From Lasiodiplodia sp. COLG20 (Eukaryota > Ascomycota > Dothideomycetes > Botryosphaeriales > Botryosphaeriaceae): a stretch of DNA of 64,000 nucleotides. The translations under genes were made by a program, and so were the position numbers. Below, piece by piece: positions 1 through 45,580 of this stretch (position 1 is the first letter of the stretch; each line of letters begins with the position of its first letter). The notes beneath the pieces are model-generated. The model was not told the DNA's origin, ran no database searches, and worked only from the letters and a program-made list of their open reading frames with translations. The stretch is from assembly GCA_009801085.1 (NCBI GenBank), contig VNWV01000003.1:496001-560000 (forward strand), in the 5' to 3' direction.

Positions 1-537
1 CTGCTGGGCATCACGCCTTACCGGCAATATCTTCTCGAGGTCATCAAGAAGTGCCCTGATACTTTCAAGTAGCGCCATAAAGTGTCCCCTCTCATAAAGC
101 GCCCACTTTGTCTTCCTTGTCAAGCCAACTTTCTTCTGCCGCGCTTGCGCCAGGCTGCGCATATGCTCGTGGAGAACCAGCATCTGTCTCTCCATGTCGC
201 TGTTTGGATCGCACGCTGCTAGTTCTGTCGCCGGGCCAGCCCTTTTCTTGAACTTTTCCGAGACTCCCTCTGCTTGAGCAAAGAGGACCAGAATTTGGCC
301 GATCGTTTTCTTGGCTTGCTCGAGTTCACCTGGCGGGAGGCTATCCTCATTCTCCTTGATATGGACGGCTTCGCCCCACCGTGTAAGGCGGAGGCGAGCA
401 TTATCCAGTTGCAGCTGGCTGGTACCAAATTCCGTGCCGAAATCGCGGCCGAGCTGGACGAATTCGAAGCAGTCGACGGCGTTGTTGAAGAGGCCGGCGA
501 GGCCAAAGGCCCCGATGCCTAGGCTGACGGGCTCCAT
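1..537 (-). CDS. HeLo-domain protein (HET-S-like), N-terminal part, runs off the window
   Basis: The minus strand is open from an ATG at 537 to the window edge (179 codons). The start reads MEPVSLGIG, followed by GLFNNAVDCFEFVQLGRDFG (about residues 14-33) and RWGEAV, then amphipathic helices to about residue 172. This is the hallmark N-terminus of the HeLo domain (prion-inhibition and propagation family) of HET-S. In that family the helical bundle targets the membrane and kills the cell when a C-terminal prion-forming motif seeds it. A GT-type donor (GTAAGG) follows codon 172 at position 21, so the visible exon may end at 22. The C-terminus is outside the window, so I cannot tell whether a prion motif is present. 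A decayed NB-ARC receptor is divergently transcribed next to it. The domain call is strong; killing activity is inference. Confidence 0.85.
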   Translation of the reverse strand, partial: MEPVSLGIGAFGLAGLFNNAVDCFEFVQLGRDFGTEFGTSQLQLDNARLRLTRWGEAVHIKENEDSLPPGELEQAKKTIGQILVLFAQAEGVSEKFKKRAGPATELAACDPNSDMERQMLVLHEHMRSLAQARQKKVGLTRKTKWALYERGHFMALLESIRALLDDLEKILPVRRDAQQ

Positions 538-987
538 GTTTGAGTGAGCTGATTTCCGTGTGCTTCTATCGCACTTTCATCTCTTGAAGATGTGTGGCAG
601 GTATATATGAGTTGAATGATCTCTTGAAGACGGGTTTACCGAGTAGTAGGTATATAAACAACGCCGGCGGCTGTCGTAACTGTCTACTCTATCAGAGCGG
701 CAATGGCCAGACAGTCGATAGGCCCTACTCTCGCTTTACCTGCCATATGAGCCATTTCTATACGAGATGAAGGCTGAGTTTGCTGTTGTGTAACAGTAAT
801 CATTTCTTGGCTCAAGGCTGTACTACCAATCACGCCTTAAATTTGAGCTCCTCCCCCACTTTCTGACATAAACATGTCTGCGCCGTAGGCAAGTCATCGC
901 TCAAAAATGTAATTCTTGCAGGATTGCTGAAACGTGTGTGTGGATATTTCGTCAAGTAGCTGGCAAGGCTGGGTATGAAAGGGCCGT
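538..987. promoter_or_regulatory. Divergent intergenic region between the HeLo gene and the receptor relic
   Basis: No supported gene. It should hold the HeLo promoter on the minus side and the 5' end of the receptor on the plus side. No in-frame ATG exists for the receptor directly upstream of 988, so an upstream exon or lost sequence may lie here. I see no clear TATA box or repeat. Confidence 0.35.
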
Positions 988-3705
988 TTGTCCATTCCTA
1001 CTTTCCCTGACCTACGCCATCAAAGACTGCTCTTTCCGGGAGTCGCTGCAGGCATAAGGCTGTACAGTTTTCTGAGCTCCACCAGTGTCCATCAAGAGTT
1101 TGTGCTGAAATCCTTTTCCGTCGTTACTATTGGCGAGTCCACGGTCTCAGAGCTACCCAAAAGGCTGCTTGAGCCTGACGGCGAATCATGTCTCACGCTG
1201 TTGGTTTCTCGGGGGAGCAAAACTGCGGAGTCCAGATTGCACATAACTCAGGGTTTGTCGGATTTGGTCGCACTTCCGGTAATGTCACAATCCAGTAGGA
1301 AAGGCGCAAGACTGATAATTCTTGCAGATGCACTCCGGCCTCCGTACCCAGAACCCTTTTCGAATGTACCGTTTCGCCGGAACCCTGACTTTGTTGACCA
1401 CGGAAACATATTACCGTCGATTGAAAATGCGCTGGCTCTGTCCGACGCCGCACGTTTTGCGCTTACAGGTCTCGGCGGCATCGGGTGAGATATGCTTCTT
1501 CCTGTGAATCAGAAAATTATGATTTACGGTGATTCAGGAAGTCTCAGTTGGCTATCGAATATGCATACCGGCGTCGCAAACGCCTTTCCGACATCGGATC
1601 ACCCGAATTTTGCTTTTGGGTGGATGCCGGTAGCCAGTCTCGATTCGAAAGTTCCTTCATGGACATTGCTGTCCGGCTTAAATTGGCGCAACGTGTAGAA
1701 GGTACTGGGAGACAACAAGATATTCTGCAGACTATGAAGGACTGGCTTGTTGATGAGAGAAACGGAGATTGGATATTGATTGTCGACAACGCGGATGACC
1801 TCTCCGTTCTGTTTGCGCCAGACACCGAAACTGATAGCACTGGACATACGAAGAGGAATCTCGCGGACTTTCTACCCCAGTCTCCGAACGGCAAAGTTCT
1901 GATTACTTCGAGGTCTAAGACTCTGGCACTCAGACTTGTCGGATACCGACCCGCAGATCTTCTGGAAGTACAACCGATGCCAGACGCACAAGCCCTTGAA
2001 TTGATGCGGAAAAAACTCTCCGTTGATTATTCCGACGAGGCATCCGCTTTCGCGCTACTGAAAGCCTTGGATTTTGTCCCTTTAGCAATTGTCCAGGCGT
2101 CAGCCTACATCAACCAAAGGAGACCCTTCACATCTATACACAAATACCTCCAGGGCTTGCGTGAAAATGGACACTCAGCCCGCCATCTTCTCGAACACAA
2201 AACTGGGGATCTAGATCTTGCCCGTTCTAGATCAATTCTATCAACTTTGAAGTTCTCGTGGGACTTCATTAGGAAACAGGCGTAATACCGCTGTACGACT
2301 ACTCTCATTGATGGCGTTCTTCAATTGCCAGGGTGTTCAAACATCCCTCCTTCTTCGGCACCGGTGCCAGTACGCTTACGACTGCAAAGTGCGCCATCAT
2401 AATCGGCTTCGCGACACGACAATGGGACGCTCCTATAATTCAAATATCCCTCACAGACCACAGTCTAACATTGACGTGATCATGAGAGGGCCTCTCACGG
2501 AATCTTCCATTTCGGCAACAAATTTGCAAATCCCAATAATGGAGGAAAGCCTTCATCTCCATTGTTGCAAAGATCCAGCACTGAATAATGAAGATGATTT
2601 TACAGAAGATTTACATTATCTTCAAGATTTCTCATTGGTCTCGTGCAGCGCAGATGGATCAGCGCTGCAGATGCACTCCTTGGTTCGGGCTGCCATTCGA
2701 GCGTGGCTTAAAAAAACAGGAGAAGATAAGAAGTGGGAATATTTGAGTTTCCAAGTACTAGCAGAGGAGTTTCCACTTGAGACTGAACTCGAGTCTTTGA
2801 AATTTTTGCAGCAGCTAAACACGCACGTGGAACTCGACGCCAAGTCGCCGCCCTATGGGAATGCTTTCAAAGACTGGGCTCAGATAATCGTTGCAATCGG
2901 ATCTTATGCGTCCGATCGAAGCGATAAGTGCCTTGAGCGCAAAGCAAGTGGGAAGGCGTTACAATTTGTAAAAGAACACGGGCGTGAGGCATTCCACAAA
3001 GATGTTGCTTTCCAAGCCATAGGAAATTTGGCTTTCCAATTGGCACAATCCGGGAATTGTGCAGATGCCGAAGATCTGCTAAGCAACCTGGAAGACGACC
3101 GCCAAACCCTACCCGCACATCATCCCGACATGTGCCGCGACTTGAAATTTCGAGCATATGTCTCCTGCAAATCAGGCAATATCGATGAAGCAGAGGTGTT
3201 GCTCCGCGAAGCAGTCAAGAGTTGGAGTAGCATTGATGGAGAAAATGGATCACGAACTCTAGACGCAAAGTTTAGTCTTGGTTCTGTTCTCATTGACAAA
3301 GAACGGTATGAAGAAGCAAGGATCATACTGAGCTCGCTCGAAGGAACATTTGAAAGACTTCAGGGTGAGAGGAGTTCTAAAACGCTGAAGACTAGGTTTC
3401 ATCTTGCACATGCTCTATATGGGCTTGCACAATTCGAAGCTTCTGCGAGTCTTTTCCAGAGGGTTTTGGATCTCTGCAGGGAAGTACTTGGTGAAAAATG
3501 CACTTTGGCAATGAAAACCGCCATTGGTTTGGGTGCGGTACGCCTAAAGCAAGGAAAATGTGACGAAGCCGAAACGCTGTTCCGCCAAACATTGGAACAG
3601 TTTGAAGACATATTTGGCAAAGAAGATCCTGACATGGAGGCATGCAGGGAAAACTTGAAAGCAGCGCTGAGATCGCAAACCAATGGAAGGACACCGCAGA
3701 GCTGA
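988..3705 (+). pseudogene. NB-ARC/TPR NLR-type receptor, frameshifted
   Basis: Three consecutive pieces form one fungal NLR. Piece one (988-1484) ends with a typical linker (VPFRRNPDFVDHG) and GLGGIG. A 53-bp intron (1485-1537) interrupts the P-loop, and splicing restores GLGGIGKSQLAIEYAYR. Piece two (1538-2279) holds Walker B (LIVDNADD), a sensor (VLITSRSKT) and a GLPL-like motif (VPLAIVQASAY). Piece three (2281-3705) opens with LLSLMAFFNCQGV, then a winged-helix region ending QMHSLVRAAIRAWL, then TPR-like repeats (EARIILSSL, EAETLFRQTLEQF). The second and third pieces meet exactly at CAG/CGT if one G near 2280 is removed. As read, the frame hits TAA at 2283. No intron can remove one base. 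The 5' end has no ATG; residues before the linker faintly resemble the end of an alpha/beta hydrolase domain. Around 2380-2570 the protein looks scrambled. Best called a pseudogene unless the extra G is a sequencing error. Confidence 0.75.
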
Positions 3706-33653: not shown

Positions 33654-34250
33654 CTACTCCTTAGCATCCCAATTCTCCCAAGTCATCTCACCACCTCGTA
33701 AAAGCAGCGAGCGTCCTTCGCCGAATTCAGTCCTCTTGACACGCAAGGCCTCATCGACCACATGATCCCCACTTCGGCATCCAACGTGACCAGCCTCTCC
33801 CCCACAACAGGACCATCGGAATCCAGGCATATTCCATTCCGCTGCGTCTTTCGCGCTGGGCAGCATGATGCTTCGATACCCGGACCAGACTGAATCTCTA
33901 TGCCAAAGTTTCAAACAACCTGAAAAAAAAAACCACGAATTAGCATGTGTATCTTCCATGGAAGGGGTGATGTGAGTGTACGTACCAGTGTGCCACCTGC
34001 AGCCAGTGCGGTCCGAGTTCCTCAGATCGATCTCGCATTTACAATTGTGGCAGGCGACGTATCTGGGATGGCGGATTTTCTTTGGTGGAGTTGTGTTTGA
34101 CGAAGAAGAGCCGTTAGGACTTGCGATTTCCATGAGAAGTTCGTCAGCAACTAGTTGTCGACCTTTGAGATCCATGATCACCTTCATTAGCGTGCGCTGG
34201 AGCCGCTCTGGTTCAACTTGAAAAATCGCTTGTGTGAGTGCGTCTGGCAT
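33654..34250 (-). CDS. CHORD-like zinc protein, cluster copy 1
   Basis: Exons 34250-33986 and 33919-33654, 176 aa. The start MPDALTQAIF matches the other copies; an ATG at 34262 is also in frame. Helical N-terminus with RLQRTLMKVI and QLVADELLM. First zinc half: C-x2-C (CHNC) and C-x2-H (CRWH). The 66-bp intron splits the Gly codon after WHTG. Second half: FRWSCCGGEAGHVGC-x4-H. That gives six Cys and two His in CHORD order. This copy has the longest linker between halves and a longer C-terminus (ends ENWDAKE). Intron-free translation also stays open, so retention is possible. Function unknown; zinc binding is inferred from ligand pattern. Confidence 0.72.
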   Translation of the reverse strand: MPDALTQAIFQVEPERLQRTLMKVIMDLKGRQLVADELLMEIASPNGSSSSNTTPPKKIRHPRYVACHNCKCEIDLRNSDRTGCRWHTGTYTHITPSMEDTHANSWFFFSGCLKLWHRDSVWSGYRSIMLPSAKDAAEWNMPGFRWSCCGGEAGHVGCRSGDHVVDEALRVKRTEFGEGRSLLLRGGEMTWENWDAKE

Positions 34251-34570
34251 GACTTCGTGCAAATATGAAAATAAAGGCGGAGAAAAAAGACAGGAATTTC
34301 AAAGGTTTGAAACAAAAGTAAAAAGAGTTGTCGTCAATATAATCGTGTTGTTGCCTGGTTGCCACCGGATGGCTGCCTGCTGCCGGAATCGGACGCTCGA
34401 GCCAACCAAATGTTTCATGTAGCTGGAAGAAGACGGCGAAAACCCCCTTTACATATCCCTCGAAGTGTAAAGCAATTAGCTCTATGTCAAACAACATTCT
34501 CCATATTAACAGATATTTCGGATAGGCGCAATGGGCCGCATTACAAAGTGCCGAGATTTTTTGAAGCTAA

Positions 34571-35065
34571 TTAGGCACACGCTCTCTTCGCTTTGACGCA
34601 CTCTTTGTGAAATCCCTCCTCACAACCCCCAGCATCCGCGGCTCCGTTACAACAAGTCCAGTAAAAGCCGTCAGGAAACTCCTGTCGGTTCTCTTCAGTG
34701 TCGACCGGGCCATGGATTTTCTCCTCGGTGTCGTCCCATTCGCCGGAGTCCCAGTCAACCTCGCATTCACCTAATCGATGCATTAACATTGAGGTCTGGC
34801 ACAGAGGAAACTCCAAGCAACTACCGCTGTGCCAGACACATTCATACTCCTTTGCCTTGGCGTATTCGAATTCCTCGCCACACTGGGCACAGATCTCATA
34901 TCTGTTGCGCTTTTTCGGACGTTCCTCAGTGTTGTTGGATGGAACCAGAAGCTCGCTTTCCACGAGTTCCTTGCCGCGTGGATCGGCGGTGATGGCCATC
35001 AAGGTCTTGCGGAGGCGTTCATTGTCCGCGGAGTTGATGGCGTGGACGATTGGTGATGATGACAT
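34571..35065 (-). CDS. CHORD-like zinc protein, cluster copy 2
   Basis: Exons 35065-34825 and 34770-34571, 146 aa. N-terminus MSSSPIVHAINSADNERLRK, then GKELVESELLV. Zinc module: YEICAQC, CVWHSG, then after the intron ECEVDWDSGEWDD, FYWTCC and GGCEEGFH. The 54-bp intron (GTAGTT to GATTAG) splits the Gly codon after WHS, exactly as in the other copies. It is in frame and stop-free. The acidic linker between the zinc halves (DTEEK, DTEENRQEFPDG) resembles copies 4, 5 and 6. About 320 bp separate it from copies on each side, all on the same strand. Confidence 0.75.
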   Translation of the reverse strand: MSSSPIVHAINSADNERLRKTLMAITADPRGKELVESELLVPSNNTEERPKKRNRYEICAQCGEEFEYAKAKEYECVWHSGSCLEFPLCQTSMLMHRLGECEVDWDSGEWDDTEEKIHGPVDTEENRQEFPDGFYWTCCNGAADAGGCEEGFHKECVKAKRACA

Positions 35066-35393
35066 GGTGATTTGCGTGTGCTGAAGAGAAGATGGTTTGC
35101 CGCGGGCCGCGTCGTTTAAAATTCGCTGGCACCCATGTCGCTTACGTTGCCGTTGCGACGAATGCCGTGGTTGTATGACGTTTGGAAGAAACTCTTCCCG
35201 TACATCATTCGATACATAGGCCACTCTTGCAGCGGAATGGCGGCGCGAAGGTTGGGAAATTTGACAACAAGGGGGGTCGGGCTTGGCGAGGGGATGTGAC
35301 AGGTCGCGGTCGCGGCTGTCAATAAAAAAGCAACTTCGCGCTAGAGTTCCGCCGGAAGAGGCTGCTGTAGCCGCCGAAGTAGGTGCGGAAGTA

Positions 35394-35959
35394 TCAAGAG
35401 CGGTTTTTCTTCTGAGATGTTGTGCAAGCCTTATGATGACCGGCCATGCAGCCTTCGGTATCACTGGGCTCCAAGCAGCAGCTCCAGAGGAACGATTCCG
35501 GGTCTTTTTCGCGGTGCTCCTGGGCGTTGAAGTTTTGCTGCTTGTAAATCCAGTCGTAGGACTCTGAAGGGTTGACGATCAAGTATCCTGTATAAAATCA
35601 GCAGAGGATTCTTACGAGTATCATTGTAGTTGCGGATCAATACCGGAGTGCCAAACGCAATGGCTGTGCCCATTGGCGGTAACGTCAAACTCTCGCTCAC
35701 ATTGTTCGCAGCGTTCGAACCGCTTCCGCTTTGTTGATTTTGCTGAAATATCAAAGGTTGGTTGTTGGGGGCTGTCTGTTTTCTCAATGGCGGCTTCTTC
35801 GGCGAGGCGAAGTTCTTCCTCGAGGCGAAGCTCTTCCTCAAGTTCGTCCTCGACAAGATCCCTGCCGTACTCGCTTTCAAGGCAATTCAACAGAATAAAT
35901 TGCAGCCGCTCCAGGTTGGCGGCAAGAACGGCTTCTCGCATGGCATCAGTGCTAGACAT
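35394..35959 (-). CDS. CHORD-like zinc protein, cluster copy 3
   Basis: Exons 35959-35644 and 35587-35394, 169 aa. N-terminus MSSTDAMREAVLAANLERLQ. An acidic repeat (ELEEELRLEEELRLAEEA) is unique to this copy and predicts a charged helix. Zinc module: FERCEQC, CVWHSG, 56-bp intron (GTATTG to TATACAG) in the Gly codon, then YLIVNPSESYDWIYK, FLWSCC, EGCMAGHH. Ends KKNRS, a basic tail. Confidence 0.75.
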
Positions 35960-36135
35960 GTTGAATAGTGAGAGTGAGGAGAAGAAAGGGATGTGAATTG
36001 CGAAGTCGGATGAGGGTGTTGCAGAGCCTTGTTCTTTTGGTGCACTTGTCTCGCTTGTTGTCGGGCCGACGAGCACGACAGGACTTTTCATCAAACCAAG
36101 TACGTGCATCGTAAGAACAGAAATCAAATTTGAGC

Positions 36136-36699
36136 TCAGCTGCGGCGCTTCTTTGCGGTGAAGGGGGCGGCGACGTGCTCGCTGACCTCGCAACCTTTGG
36201 CCGAGCCCCTCTGCTCGCAACAGCCTTCCCATATGAAGCCGTCGGGGTAGTCTTTTCTCATCTCTTCAGTGTCAATTTCTCCATGGCAATCTTCGTCATG
36301 ATCGGCCCAAAAGTCCCCATAGACATCCACCTCCAGATCACCTAAGGTAAAACGATCGCCGTCAGTTTCCGGGCTCTCGGCTGGCTGTGGGTCACCTACC
36401 GCTGTGCCAGACGCAAGCGTCACTCGAATTTTTAGTCGTGTCGAATTCCTTATGGCACTGCTCGCACATCTCATATCTCTTCCGCTTGGTGCTAGCAGGC
36501 GCATCAACGTTCACCTCCGGGAGAGGAAGGCAATCATTCCCGCCAGTAGTGGGGGCATCCTCGGGCACCAAAAGCGCTTTTTCGAAGAGCTCCCGCGTGT
36601 GCTTGTCTTTCGTAACCAAGTCGATCAACGTGTCCTGAAGCCGCTCATGGGTCGCAGACAGAATTGCGGTCGTAATCGGCTCAAGCTGGGGTGGCTCAT
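36136..36699 (-). pseudogene. CHORD-like zinc protein, cluster copy 4, start out of frame
   Basis: Exons end at 36400 and run 36341-36136. Zinc module: YEMCEQC, CVWHSG, 58-bp intron in the Gly codon, DLEVDVYGDFWADHDED, then WEGCC (one residue more than the W-x-CC of the other copies) and GCEVSEH. Upstream of the conserved helix (TAILSATHERLQDTL) no ATG is in frame before a TGA near 36760. The only suitable ATG, at 36699, is one base out of frame. Restoring a single base between it and 36680 would give a start like those of the other copies and an exon length of the same phase. So a one-base loss is the simplest reading. A 5' intron or a sequencing error are alternatives. Confidence 0.6.
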
Positions 36700-36890
36700 G
36701 CCGGGGTGCTATGACGCCTGCTGTATTGCAAAGAATTTGGCGATACGTCCGTACGAAGGTTCAACGTGTCGCGAGAAAAAAGTTCCCTAGTTCGCGTCGG
36801 CGCGTCACGCGTTCTCGGGCCGATGACCTCATCGCCGCTTCCCGCTCGGTGTTTGCAAATTTCCCAATACAGTAACTGCAGGCTGTCTTT

Positions 36891-37492
36891 CTACATCTCC
36901 ATCGAATCACCTTCACCGGACTGGCACACTCTCTTATCTGAATACCCCTGCTCTGCATGGTGGCCCGTCTGGCATCCTGCATCTTTGACGTCTCCTTGCA
37001 TTCCGCAACAACTCCACAGGAACCTCTCCGGGAACTTCTGGCGCGACTCTGCCGAATCAATCGCCCCGTCTCGCTCTTCCCTGTGATACTTCCAGAATCC
37101 AGTGTTCCAATTTACCACCAAGGCCCCTACGCAAGCACGCTCATCAGTTCCAGTCCAAATGACGACCAGACGGAAATACGAAGAAACTCACCCGGATGCC
37201 ACCGGCACGCCTCGCCATCGTTCTTCGTGACGTCGTATTCCCTCTCGCACCTGGCGCAGCATTCGTACCGCCGCCGCTTGGTTGACGAGCTACGCACCTG
37301 GCTCGGTGCTGAGCCGTCCCAACTCAACCTCGAGAATGACGACTGCACCGTCTGCACCAGGAACTCTTGCTCAACGGCTTCGCGGCACGGCCGGTCAACG
37401 AAAGCAATGCGTAGCAGGATTTCGCGCAGCAGCTCCGGCGAGGCGGCGTGGATGGCGTCGACGAGAGTCTGTTGCGATGAAGGCGAAGACAT
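36891..37492 (-). CDS. CHORD-like zinc protein, cluster copy 5
   Basis: Exons 37492-37192 and 37126-36891, 178 aa. N-terminus MSSPSSQQTLVDAIHAASPE, then REAVEQEFLV. Zinc module: YECCARC, CRWHPG, 65-bp intron (GTGAGT to GCGTAG) in the Gly codon, ALVVNWNTGFWKYHREERDG, FLWSCC, AGCQTGHH. The WHPG sequence is the closest of the set to the canonical CHORD C-x-x-H-P-G. Clear start context and a strong donor make this the cleanest model in the cluster. Confidence 0.78.
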
Positions 37493-38553
37493 TGCTGGTA
37501 TAAGACTTGATTTGAGATGAATGGAGAAGGATGAGTGGTTCAAGTCTGACGATAAGCGGGTGGTGTTCTTGAGATGGGTCTGAGACGGACGTTGCCGGGT
37601 CAACGGGCGGTGTTCGCAGACGGAAAGATATGCTCTGAAGTCTCACCACTTGCATGAAGTGGGTGGAGCTCCGGATGAGGTGTGGAGATGAGTTTCAGTC
37701 TCCAGGTGGTTCCGTCTTGTCACGGGTGCGACTAAGGGACGGCCGCCACTCTTTCCTTCCATGGTGTTCTCGTCTAAACTCCTGCCGGTTGCCAAGTCTC
37801 CTGGCTCAGTACGGACCTCCAGCTTCTTCGACCACTGCAACTCATCGAGGAGTCACTCTTTGCATCAACTTCATGAAGACGGATTCAACATCTTAAGGCC
37901 CAGACAGGAAGGATGCGATAATCCGCCACCGGCATCGATTGGCGTTATCGCCAAGGCGCTCAAAGACATACTTTTGCCTTGAGACATTGCTGGGCCGTGC
38001 TGCAACTCGGGACACGTCAAGCTCTGCCCGGTGCAGGAGCATTTTGATATCATGCGATGTCGAGGGGTAGAAAGAGACGAGAAGAGTAGGGGTGGGGGTC
38101 CGATCGGAGCAGCCCGATAGCCGAACACGTGTTGCCCTGCGATCCCGGCCCGGACTCAGGTTGAATGCCCTCAGCCGGCTCTCTGATTTGCGCGCCTTTG
38201 TTACGGCCGCACGTGAAACGTATCATTGTCCCAAAGCCTCCCGCGTCCTGCGCTTTCGTCAATCCAGCGCATCCCTGCCAACGAAGGCGCCAGCAACGTG
38301 CAGACTGTCGTGAGGCCAGACCCGGCTTGCTGCATCATTCCAGGGGGGTCAGGGGTTTCAGAAAAACAAAATCACGCGCGCACCGATCCAACCCCATTGT
38401 CTGCGATCACAACCGCCTTTTCTACCCCAGCCCCAGCATTCTTCGGCCCAGCGATCGCCATCACGACCCGTCTAACAGCCCAGCCCTACGGCACCACCAA
38501 CACGAACCGAACCCCGGATTTTCTGTCTCCTGCAAGCCTCCCCAAAAGGAACA
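37493..38553. promoter_or_regulatory. Divergent region between cluster copies 5 and 6
   Basis: About 1.06 kb between opposite-strand paralogues. No domain-bearing frame. It should hold both promoters. Short frames on both strands overlap and are not supported. Confidence 0.35.
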
Positions 38554-39194
38554 ATGACTTCCAGGGCCCTGCACGAAGCCATTGATTACGCAAGCCATGA
38601 GCGCCTGAGAATGACCCTCAAGGCCATCTGCGAAAAGTCGGCCATCGTCCGCGAGCTCGTCGGCCACGAACTCATGGTCGATTCGCGCAGCAGCAGCGAG
38701 GAGCCCATCTTCCATGCATCATCTGCTACTTCTTTTCCTTCTGTTCTTCCCATGACGGCAATGCTTGGAGGCGCAAATGGTGTCGCGCCAAGCCGCAAAC
38801 GCCCAAGCGTCCAGTACGTCGAATGCACCCGGTGTAACAGGAAATTCGAAACCGCCTCTGATAAACCCAGCGAGTGCGTTTGGCATGACGGTGCGTTTTG
38901 GCTCACATACTCTTGTCTTGTTGTTTCATAAAACTAGCCGTTTCATGATGGATCAGCTGATATCATTCTTTGCCACCAGGACCGCTTGCTGTCGACTTCA
39001 ACCACGAGGTTTGGGCAGACTGGTGCGACAGAACGTTCGGTTCGCTCGATAGTGAAGAGAACATGAGAGCAAACTATCCCGACCACCCTGAAGGCTTCTT
39101 TTGGAGATGTTGCGGTGGCCGGGGCGACTCCAACGGCTGCCGCAGAGGACCTCATCAACAACGGGAAGGTTCCGTCAAAAGAATGAGGGTTTAA
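38554..39194 (+). CDS. CHORD-like zinc protein, cluster copy 6, inverted
   Basis: Exons 38554-38890 and 38980-39194, 183 aa, plus strand, opposite to copies 1-5. N-terminus MTSRALHEAIDYASHERLRM, then RELVGHELMV, as in the others. Zinc module: YVECTRC, CVWHDG, intron in the Gly codon, PLAVDFNHEVWADWCDR, FFWRCC, NGCRRGPH. Its 89-bp intron (GTGCGT to CACCAG) is the longest in the family. Ends with a basic tail (KRMRV). Confidence 0.75.
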
Positions 39195-44045: not shown

Positions 44046-45580
44046 ATGGACGAAGTCCCGCAGGCCCACGGAAGGAAGAAGAAGCTTATAATCTGCTGTG
44101 ACGGTACAGCGTGCAGAGAATCACTCGAAACGAATTTGACCAACGTATCACGAATTTCGCAATGCATCAGCGGTTCAGATTACAACGGAATCCCCCAGAT
44201 CAAACTTTACCAGCCAGGTGTCGGCACTGACCCACACAATCCTTTGAGATCTGTGGATCAGGCTACTGGAGCCGGTGTGTTGGGCTTTTCTTCTCTCTTT
44301 CTCCCTCACACACACTCTCCTTAGTAATCTAACAATTTCTTAGGTATCGATGAGAATATTCAAGAGGCATACACCTTCATTTGCCAAAACTATGGATGCG
44401 CAGACGACGAAATATATCTCATTGGCTTCTCAAGGGGGGCTTTCACGGTGAGATGTATAGCACAGCTGATCGATCAGATTGGGCTGCTCACCATGACGCA
44501 CCTCCGCCGCTTACCGGATCTCTTTCGCGATTGGAGGAGCGGGCAACTTGACCATACGCTGTTGAGTCAGCTGCATCAACGAGACCCTTTTCGGAGTCCT
44601 GCGGCCGTTCGTATTCAGGTGTGTGCCGTATGGGATACAGTCAGCACTATTGGCCTGCGTGATTCCCTTTCGCAACATTTGACACATCGACTACGCTTCG
44701 TCAATTCCGACCTTTGTCGTAATATCAACCACGCTTTCCAAGCTCTTTCTCTACATGAGAGGCGGTTAACGTTTCGCCCTATAGTGTGGAGAACCCGCGA
44801 TCATGGGGATGATACAAACCTTGAAGAGGTTGGAGGCTTTCAGAATGTCCCAGATCTACAACAGTGCTGGTTTCTAGGCTACCACAGCGACATCGGCGGC
44901 GGCCAAGAGAAGGACAGCCTTGCGCAACTCGCGCTGATATGGATGATCTCAAAGCTGAAGGCCTACCTACGCTTCGACTTCACCCCTATATGGGATGAAT
45001 ATGACCCCCCCTCGGAAGATGGAAAAAGGCCAACCTGGAGAATCGCCCATAAGACCATGCGAGACTATGGAGAGGACTGTGAGATTAAGACAAGTTCAAT
45101 GCACCAACTCAATGGACGTCTACTGACAATTCTGAAGTCAACAACAGGCTAAGAGATTCCAAGAGAGGCATTTTTCGCTTTCTGTTTTCCGCACATCGAA
45201 TACCACGCTGTCAGTTTTGGTCCCCCCAAGGCTTTCAAGAGACGGACCCGAGCAACACCTCCAGTGAAAGTATGCATTACACTGTGCGCATGCTTTTAGA
45301 ACGGCCGACGGTTCCAAAATGCAAGAATTTGGAGAATGGAGACATTATAAGGCATCATGAGAACGGGTGGGTCTGGACACTCCGGCCTGGTAGGCCGGTT
45401 GCGGAATATAGAATCACGGAGCACACGCTGGACGAGTTTGAGAAAGACCTTCTTCGCAGATGGTTGACCCGGGAGCTCATTTATATACAAGATCATGCTG
45501 GGCAGAGTGATCGAGACCCGGGAACAATCATTGCCGAACTGCTTGATTTCCTTCGGCGCGAGGATGACCGACCGGTATGA
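44046..45580 (+). CDS. DUF2235-family alpha/beta hydrolase
   Basis: Exons 44046-44274, 44344-45078 and probably 45156-45580, about 462 aa. The start segment KKLIICCDGTA is the family signature. The nucleophile motif IGFSRGAFT is intact (Ser106). VWDTVSTIG and WFLGYHSDIGGG carry the presumed Asp and His. DUF2235 includes the catalytic domain of type VI secretion phospholipase effectors (Tle1) and many fungal proteins of unknown substrate. The first intron (69 bp) is firm. The second is inferred: frame 1 stops at 45152, while the conserved continuation (KRGIFRFLFSAHRIPR, then MHYTVRMLLERPTV) is in another frame. GTGAGA at 45079 to AAGAG at 45155 connects them, but a frameshift is possible. It neighbours the Ser-less hydrolase on the opposite strand. 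Confidence 0.75.

Follow-up and report, generated by a model that had tools for sequence, protein, structure and literature searches.

The single-zinc C2H2 finger is defined by the motif C-x2-4-C ... H-x3-5-H and the Btk-type finger (PF00779) by the ligand set H...CC...C; the latter is reportedly related to the CHORD domain (PF04968), as Kaur and Subramanian are said to have proposed in 2018. Judging from the available portions of the literature, CHORDs are known from few types of protein and have been best studied as HSP90 co-chaperones. In RAR1 CHORD2, one zinc is held by H181, C196, C197 and C213 and the other by C159, C164, C178 and H218 (PMC2935968). Residues F187, H188, D189, F204 and F207 contact HSP90 or its nucleotide, W217 and E170 contact SGT1 (PMC2935968 and PMC3896489), and His188 is called invariant in CHORDs (PMC2935968). 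Finally, the Rex3/REXO1 exonucleases are described as carrying a single structure-detected CHORD and a three-helix KIX domain, followed by a DEDDh nuclease (PMC12129344).

We analysed a 64,000-nucleotide window (contig C23:496001-560000) of the 43.5 Mb genome of Lasiodiplodia sp. COLG20. An earlier note on this DNA had described six small genes at 33654-39194, A to E on the minus strand and F on the plus strand, and our spliced models bear out both the coordinates and the strands (Table 1). All six genes are modelled, by prediction from the sequence, as two exons joined at GT-AG splice sites across a single phase-1 intron of 54-89 bp, which always falls at the same place, inside the Gly codon of C-x-W-H-x-G. 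The predicted proteins have 146-183 residues (at least 167 in the case of D). Each begins with a module of three short helices and continues through a basic linker into a presumed two-zinc domain. The motif order read by the note, C-x2-C / C-x-W-H-x-G / W-x-CC / GC-x4-H, is present in all six genes, with W-x2-CC in D; an alignment of the six proteins has 20 invariant columns, all eight Cys/His ligands among them, and the other cluster proteins are 31-45% identical to gene B. Over the aligned 69%, F shares 98% identity with a protein of L. theobromae. At 36697, where comparison with the other genes places the start of gene D, its frame has no ATG, the residue there being Ile in this genome and Met in the L. 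theobromae model P0002 (an apparent fusion); the gene may have an upstream exon or an alternative start, or may be damaged. In the public Lasiodiplodia models P0001 and P0002 the first exon of gene E is apparently fused to gene D, and the published gene models of the cluster may be unreliable.

Table 1. Cluster genes and other features of the window (positions count from its first nucleotide; exons in order of transcription)
Feature	Exons or position	Span	Strand	Protein	Intron	Remarks
Gene A	34250-33986 + 33919-33654	33654..34250	minus	176 aa	66 bp, phase 1	spliced model; relative P0005
Gene B	35065-34825 + 34770-34571	34571..35065	minus	146 aa	54 bp	L. theobromae relative P0004, 90% identical
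Gene C	35959-35644 + 35587-35394	35394..35959	minus	169 aa	56 bp	Diplodia relatives P0007, P0008
Gene D	36697-36400 + 36341-36136	36136..36697	minus	at least 167 aa	58 bp	exon-wise self-match
Gene E	37492-37192 + 37126-36891	36891..37492	minus	178 aa	65 bp	Diplodia seriata relative P0003
Gene F	38554-38890 + 38980-39194	38554..39194	plus	183 aa	89 bp	relatives in Macrophomina, Neofusicoccum, Diplodia
HeLo-domain gene	1-576					window left end; possibly NLR-like
TPR gene	2251-3702					window left end; possibly NLR-like
Tle1-like (PF09994) lipase domain	44328-45149					E 3.6e-55

Protein search and DNA pattern together, run over the whole genome, give a total of seven copies. C-x-W-H-x-G followed by a splice donor occurs as a DNA pattern at 17 places in the 43.5 Mb (the reversed control pattern at 10), and at 6/17 of these W-x-CC...GC-x4-H follows within 400 bases downstream; these six places are the cluster genes. 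The seventh copy, at C23:2522699-2523209, has its intron at the same place and shares the ligand order C,C,C,H,C,C,C,H with the six. Since its core reads C-K-S-H-D-G, the Trp of C-x-W-H is dispensable, and what the copies have in common reduces to C-x2-H-x-G. Four extra protein queries at E<=1 returned one more place in the search for further copies, with E 0.95 and two internal stops.

Three protein searches, the third with a consensus-like query, found 95 relatives. Relatives of the cluster genes in the same frame occur in other Botryosphaeriaceae genomes, the genera with relatives being Lasiodiplodia, Diplodia, Botryosphaeria, Macrophomina and Neofusicoccum; among other Pezizomycotina they are found in, for example, Elsinoe, Bipolaris, Parastagonospora, Gaeumannomyces, Fusarium, Trichoderma, Xylaria, Colletotrichum and the lichen Ramalina. 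Non-fungal relatives come from the cryptophyte Hemiselmis andersenii and the liverwort Calypogeia fissa, and many relatives, the short forms described below above all, from metagenome contigs. The Calypogeia protein (P0064, P0066) is encoded on a 12 Mb contig and, N-terminal helices included, has the full form seen in fungi; both gene transfer and endophyte DNA are possible. Many relatives bear the UniRef name 'C2H2-type domain-containing', and PF26782 is listed for 2/95. The cluster proteins belong to a large, apparently undescribed eukaryotic family.

Local duplication, which the earlier note had expected, is plausible for the six paralogs, but the cluster is at least partly old. In a tree of 44 domains and 84 columns, which has many weak forks and long branches, genes C, E and F, like the seventh copy, fall together with sequences from further genera of Botryosphaeriaceae (Diplodia, Botryosphaeria, Macrophomina and Neofusicoccum for C, E and F), gene A groups only with another genome and gene B only with L. 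theobromae, and D stands alone. C- and F-type genes are close by locus tag in Diplodia corticola (BKCO1_4000201/203) and D. intermedia (SLS58_009257/254), and B- and F-type genes are likewise close in L. theobromae (BFW01_g11921/g11918), which dates the cluster, at least in its C-F part, to before the Diplodia/Lasiodiplodia split. Strong divergence of the linkers holds between paralogs, but between putative orthologs the linker is conserved better than, worse than or equally to the zinc domain, depending on the gene (linker vs domain identity: A 90% vs 93%, B 100% vs 84%, E 91% vs 91%, F 64-80% vs 67-70%, C 37-63% vs 59-61% and the seventh copy, G, 47% vs 63%). In the domain, gene E and Diplodia seriata P0003 are identical at 72/79 residues.

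The CHORD likeness proposed in the note finds support in predicted structure and ligands, but not in the Pfam model. The six genes matched no Pfam family above its cut-off, and CHORD gave no match to them up to E 10. Among 42 relatives scanned, 5 matched CHORD weakly (best E 0.085) and 9 matched PHD_P300 (best 0.023), while the best E-value among the 25 families listed for these relatives, 0.0007, belonged to an unrelated repressor family. P0080 reached 15.1 bits against CHORD (E 0.037), and the CHORD cut-off of 24.6 bits was reached by none of the six genes or the relatives scanned. The predicted fold of a relative matches the CHORD fold (compared with RAR1 CHORD2, 2xcm, and CHORDC1, 2yrt), and ligand order and the presumed zinc-site partition point the same way.

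A complete H-x-G...W-x-CC...GC core is present in 69/95 relatives; the other 26 are fragments or lack the pattern, as does the Hemiselmis protein, whose first repeat has no GC. Fifty of these 69 relatives were scored as full forms (in P0082 the last His comes one residue early), and in 15 the N-terminal C-x2-C...C is absent jointly with the last His; in these short forms the C-lobe ligands are retained by definition of the search pattern. As for the remaining 4/69, the pattern mis-scored P0016 and P0091, neither of which misses any of the eight ligands (there is a long spacer in P0091), the third Cys is replaced in P0062, and P0081 is a fragment without the N side. Given this joint absence, the short forms are without a counterpart of the C159/C164/C178/H218 set of RAR1, and by sequence comparison their pattern fits the CHORD zinc partition as published. 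The missing N side was noticed and tabulated before the comparison with RAR1, and the counting (15 of 69) was done after it. In the shared lobe, hhalign of 26 repeats from 14 short-form proteins against 42 full-form rows gave 100% over 52/52 columns: as profiles compare, short and full forms are one family. Direct profile comparison of the short forms with CHORD was not significant. One tandem short form, P0030, is joined to an HMG box.

We consider it fairly probable that the six genes are tandem paralogs of a eukaryotic zinc-domain family with the CHORD fold, acting as adaptors with partners other than HSP90 and SGT1. In this reading C-x2-C, C and the final H would hold the N-lobe zinc, H-x-G, CC and GC would hold the C-lobe zinc, and the domain would form a zinc-stabilised protein-binding surface. 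The N-terminal helices could bind a partner or dimerise; together, the three helices, the basic linker and the presumed two-zinc domain suggest a binding module, and the divergent paralogs may differ in partner. The proteins would be intracellular, possibly nuclear adaptors, a role that is the weakest step of this explanation. Family scans of the cluster proteins revealed no catalytic signature. Short basic runs occur in 7/7 copies of this genome, and the motif [VI][VIA][DE]LT, which we take to be SUMO-interacting-like, in 11/95 relatives (9 of these within seven residues of the start) and 0/7 copies of this genome.

The note's link to RAR1, SGT1, HSP90 and NLR receptors receives no support. 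In favour of true CHORD co-chaperones that would bind HSP90 and SGT1 and chaperone fungal NLR-like receptors, as RAR1 does in plants, are the predicted fold match and the possibly NLR-like HeLo-domain and TPR genes some 30 kb away. However, F-H-[DE] near H-x-G, F-x2-F between CC and GC, and a Trp before the last His (scored as F187-H188-[DE]189, F204/F207 and W217) are found in 0/86 cores, 79 in relatives and 7 in this genome; His188, called invariant in CHORDs, has no counterpart. The genome already owns an ordinary two-CHORD gene (L001, C23:468653-469318), which shares the cluster's contig at a distance of 60 kb, and both its CHORDs carry F-H-[DE] and F-x2-F; nothing but distance connects it to the cluster. 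We therefore regard a co-chaperone function as very improbable. Of the NLR-related genes claimed for the window, the HeLo and TPR genes stand as possibly NLR-like, but NB-ARC and NACHT had no match in the frames scanned (20/28 listed open frames of >=180 residues, unspliced). An FAD_binding_2 gene adjoins the cluster, and farther to its right lie the Tle1-like lipase, an HIR1-like WD40 protein, a WH2 protein and a rhomboid. No common function emerges from this neighbourhood.

The 'C2H2-type' names would make the proteins DNA-binding zinc-finger transcription factors, in keeping with their basic runs, the HMG box of P0030 and weak matches between the C-x2-C half and C2H2 fingers, the best PDB hit among them. 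Yet the C2H2 motif is absent, the third and fourth ligands forming C-x2-H rather than H-x3-5-H, and the listed alignments cover the first half only, leaving the invariant second half without a counterpart; we find this quite improbable. Convergence, by which an independent binuclear zinc domain, possibly an enlarged Btk-type finger, reached the CHORD ligand order, seems unlikely to us, since the agreement with CHORD in predicted topology, presumed ligand partition and profile score exceeds that of shuffles; in its favour, the sequence link to CHORD sits mainly in the N-lobe, a CHORD-Btk relation is said to have been proposed, and 7/13 short forms match BTK weakly (best E 0.0074; listed scores 11.0-14.9 bits, under the cut-off of 24 bits).

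We retain the CHORD-fold adaptor family as our preferred reading. Some short forms are protist and have the C-lobe site only, and fungal members have both sites, with 52/52 shared columns, which would imply that the two-lobed CHORD arose or shrank by one unit. Tentatively, and with some doubt, we propose that the family survives as a link connecting Btk-type fingers with CHORD domains, in which the N-lobe C-x2-C...C and the returning His were gained or lost as a unit, and that its fold serves nuclear, possibly SUMO-linked adaptors, not HSP90. The one-site members would offer a direct test of the origin of the two-lobed domain. A large CHORD-fold family without the HSP90 surface would show the fold's role outside chaperoning, and many fungal proteins could be freed of the misleading 'C2H2-type' label.

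Compared with CHORDs, the cluster family has the same predicted fold, the eight ligands in the same order, H-x-G, W-x-CC and the terminal C-x4-H. It differs in the first Cys pair, C-x2-C here, as the note had pointed out, and C-x4-C in CHORDs; in the CC-to-C spacing (8 residues in 6/7 own copies and 10 in gene E, vs 15 in four CHORDs compared); in the distance from H-x-G to W-x-CC (33-40 residues vs 10); and in lacking the F-H-[DE], F-x2-F and Trp of CHORDs. The cluster proteins have one domain plus N-terminal helices and score under the Pfam CHORD cut-off. Btk-type fingers resemble the short forms, which have one presumed site H...CC...C and the weak BTK matches, whereas in the fungal full form another zinc site is presumed. 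C2H2 fingers are alike in C-x2-C and the weak first-half alignment, but here the invariant CC/GC/H half is extra. Rex3/REXO1 (PMC12129344) likewise pair a three-helix domain with a single CHORD, although their helices form a KIX domain and they go on to a DEDDh nuclease, which the cluster proteins do not have; we read this as a parallel in architecture rather than a demonstrated kinship.
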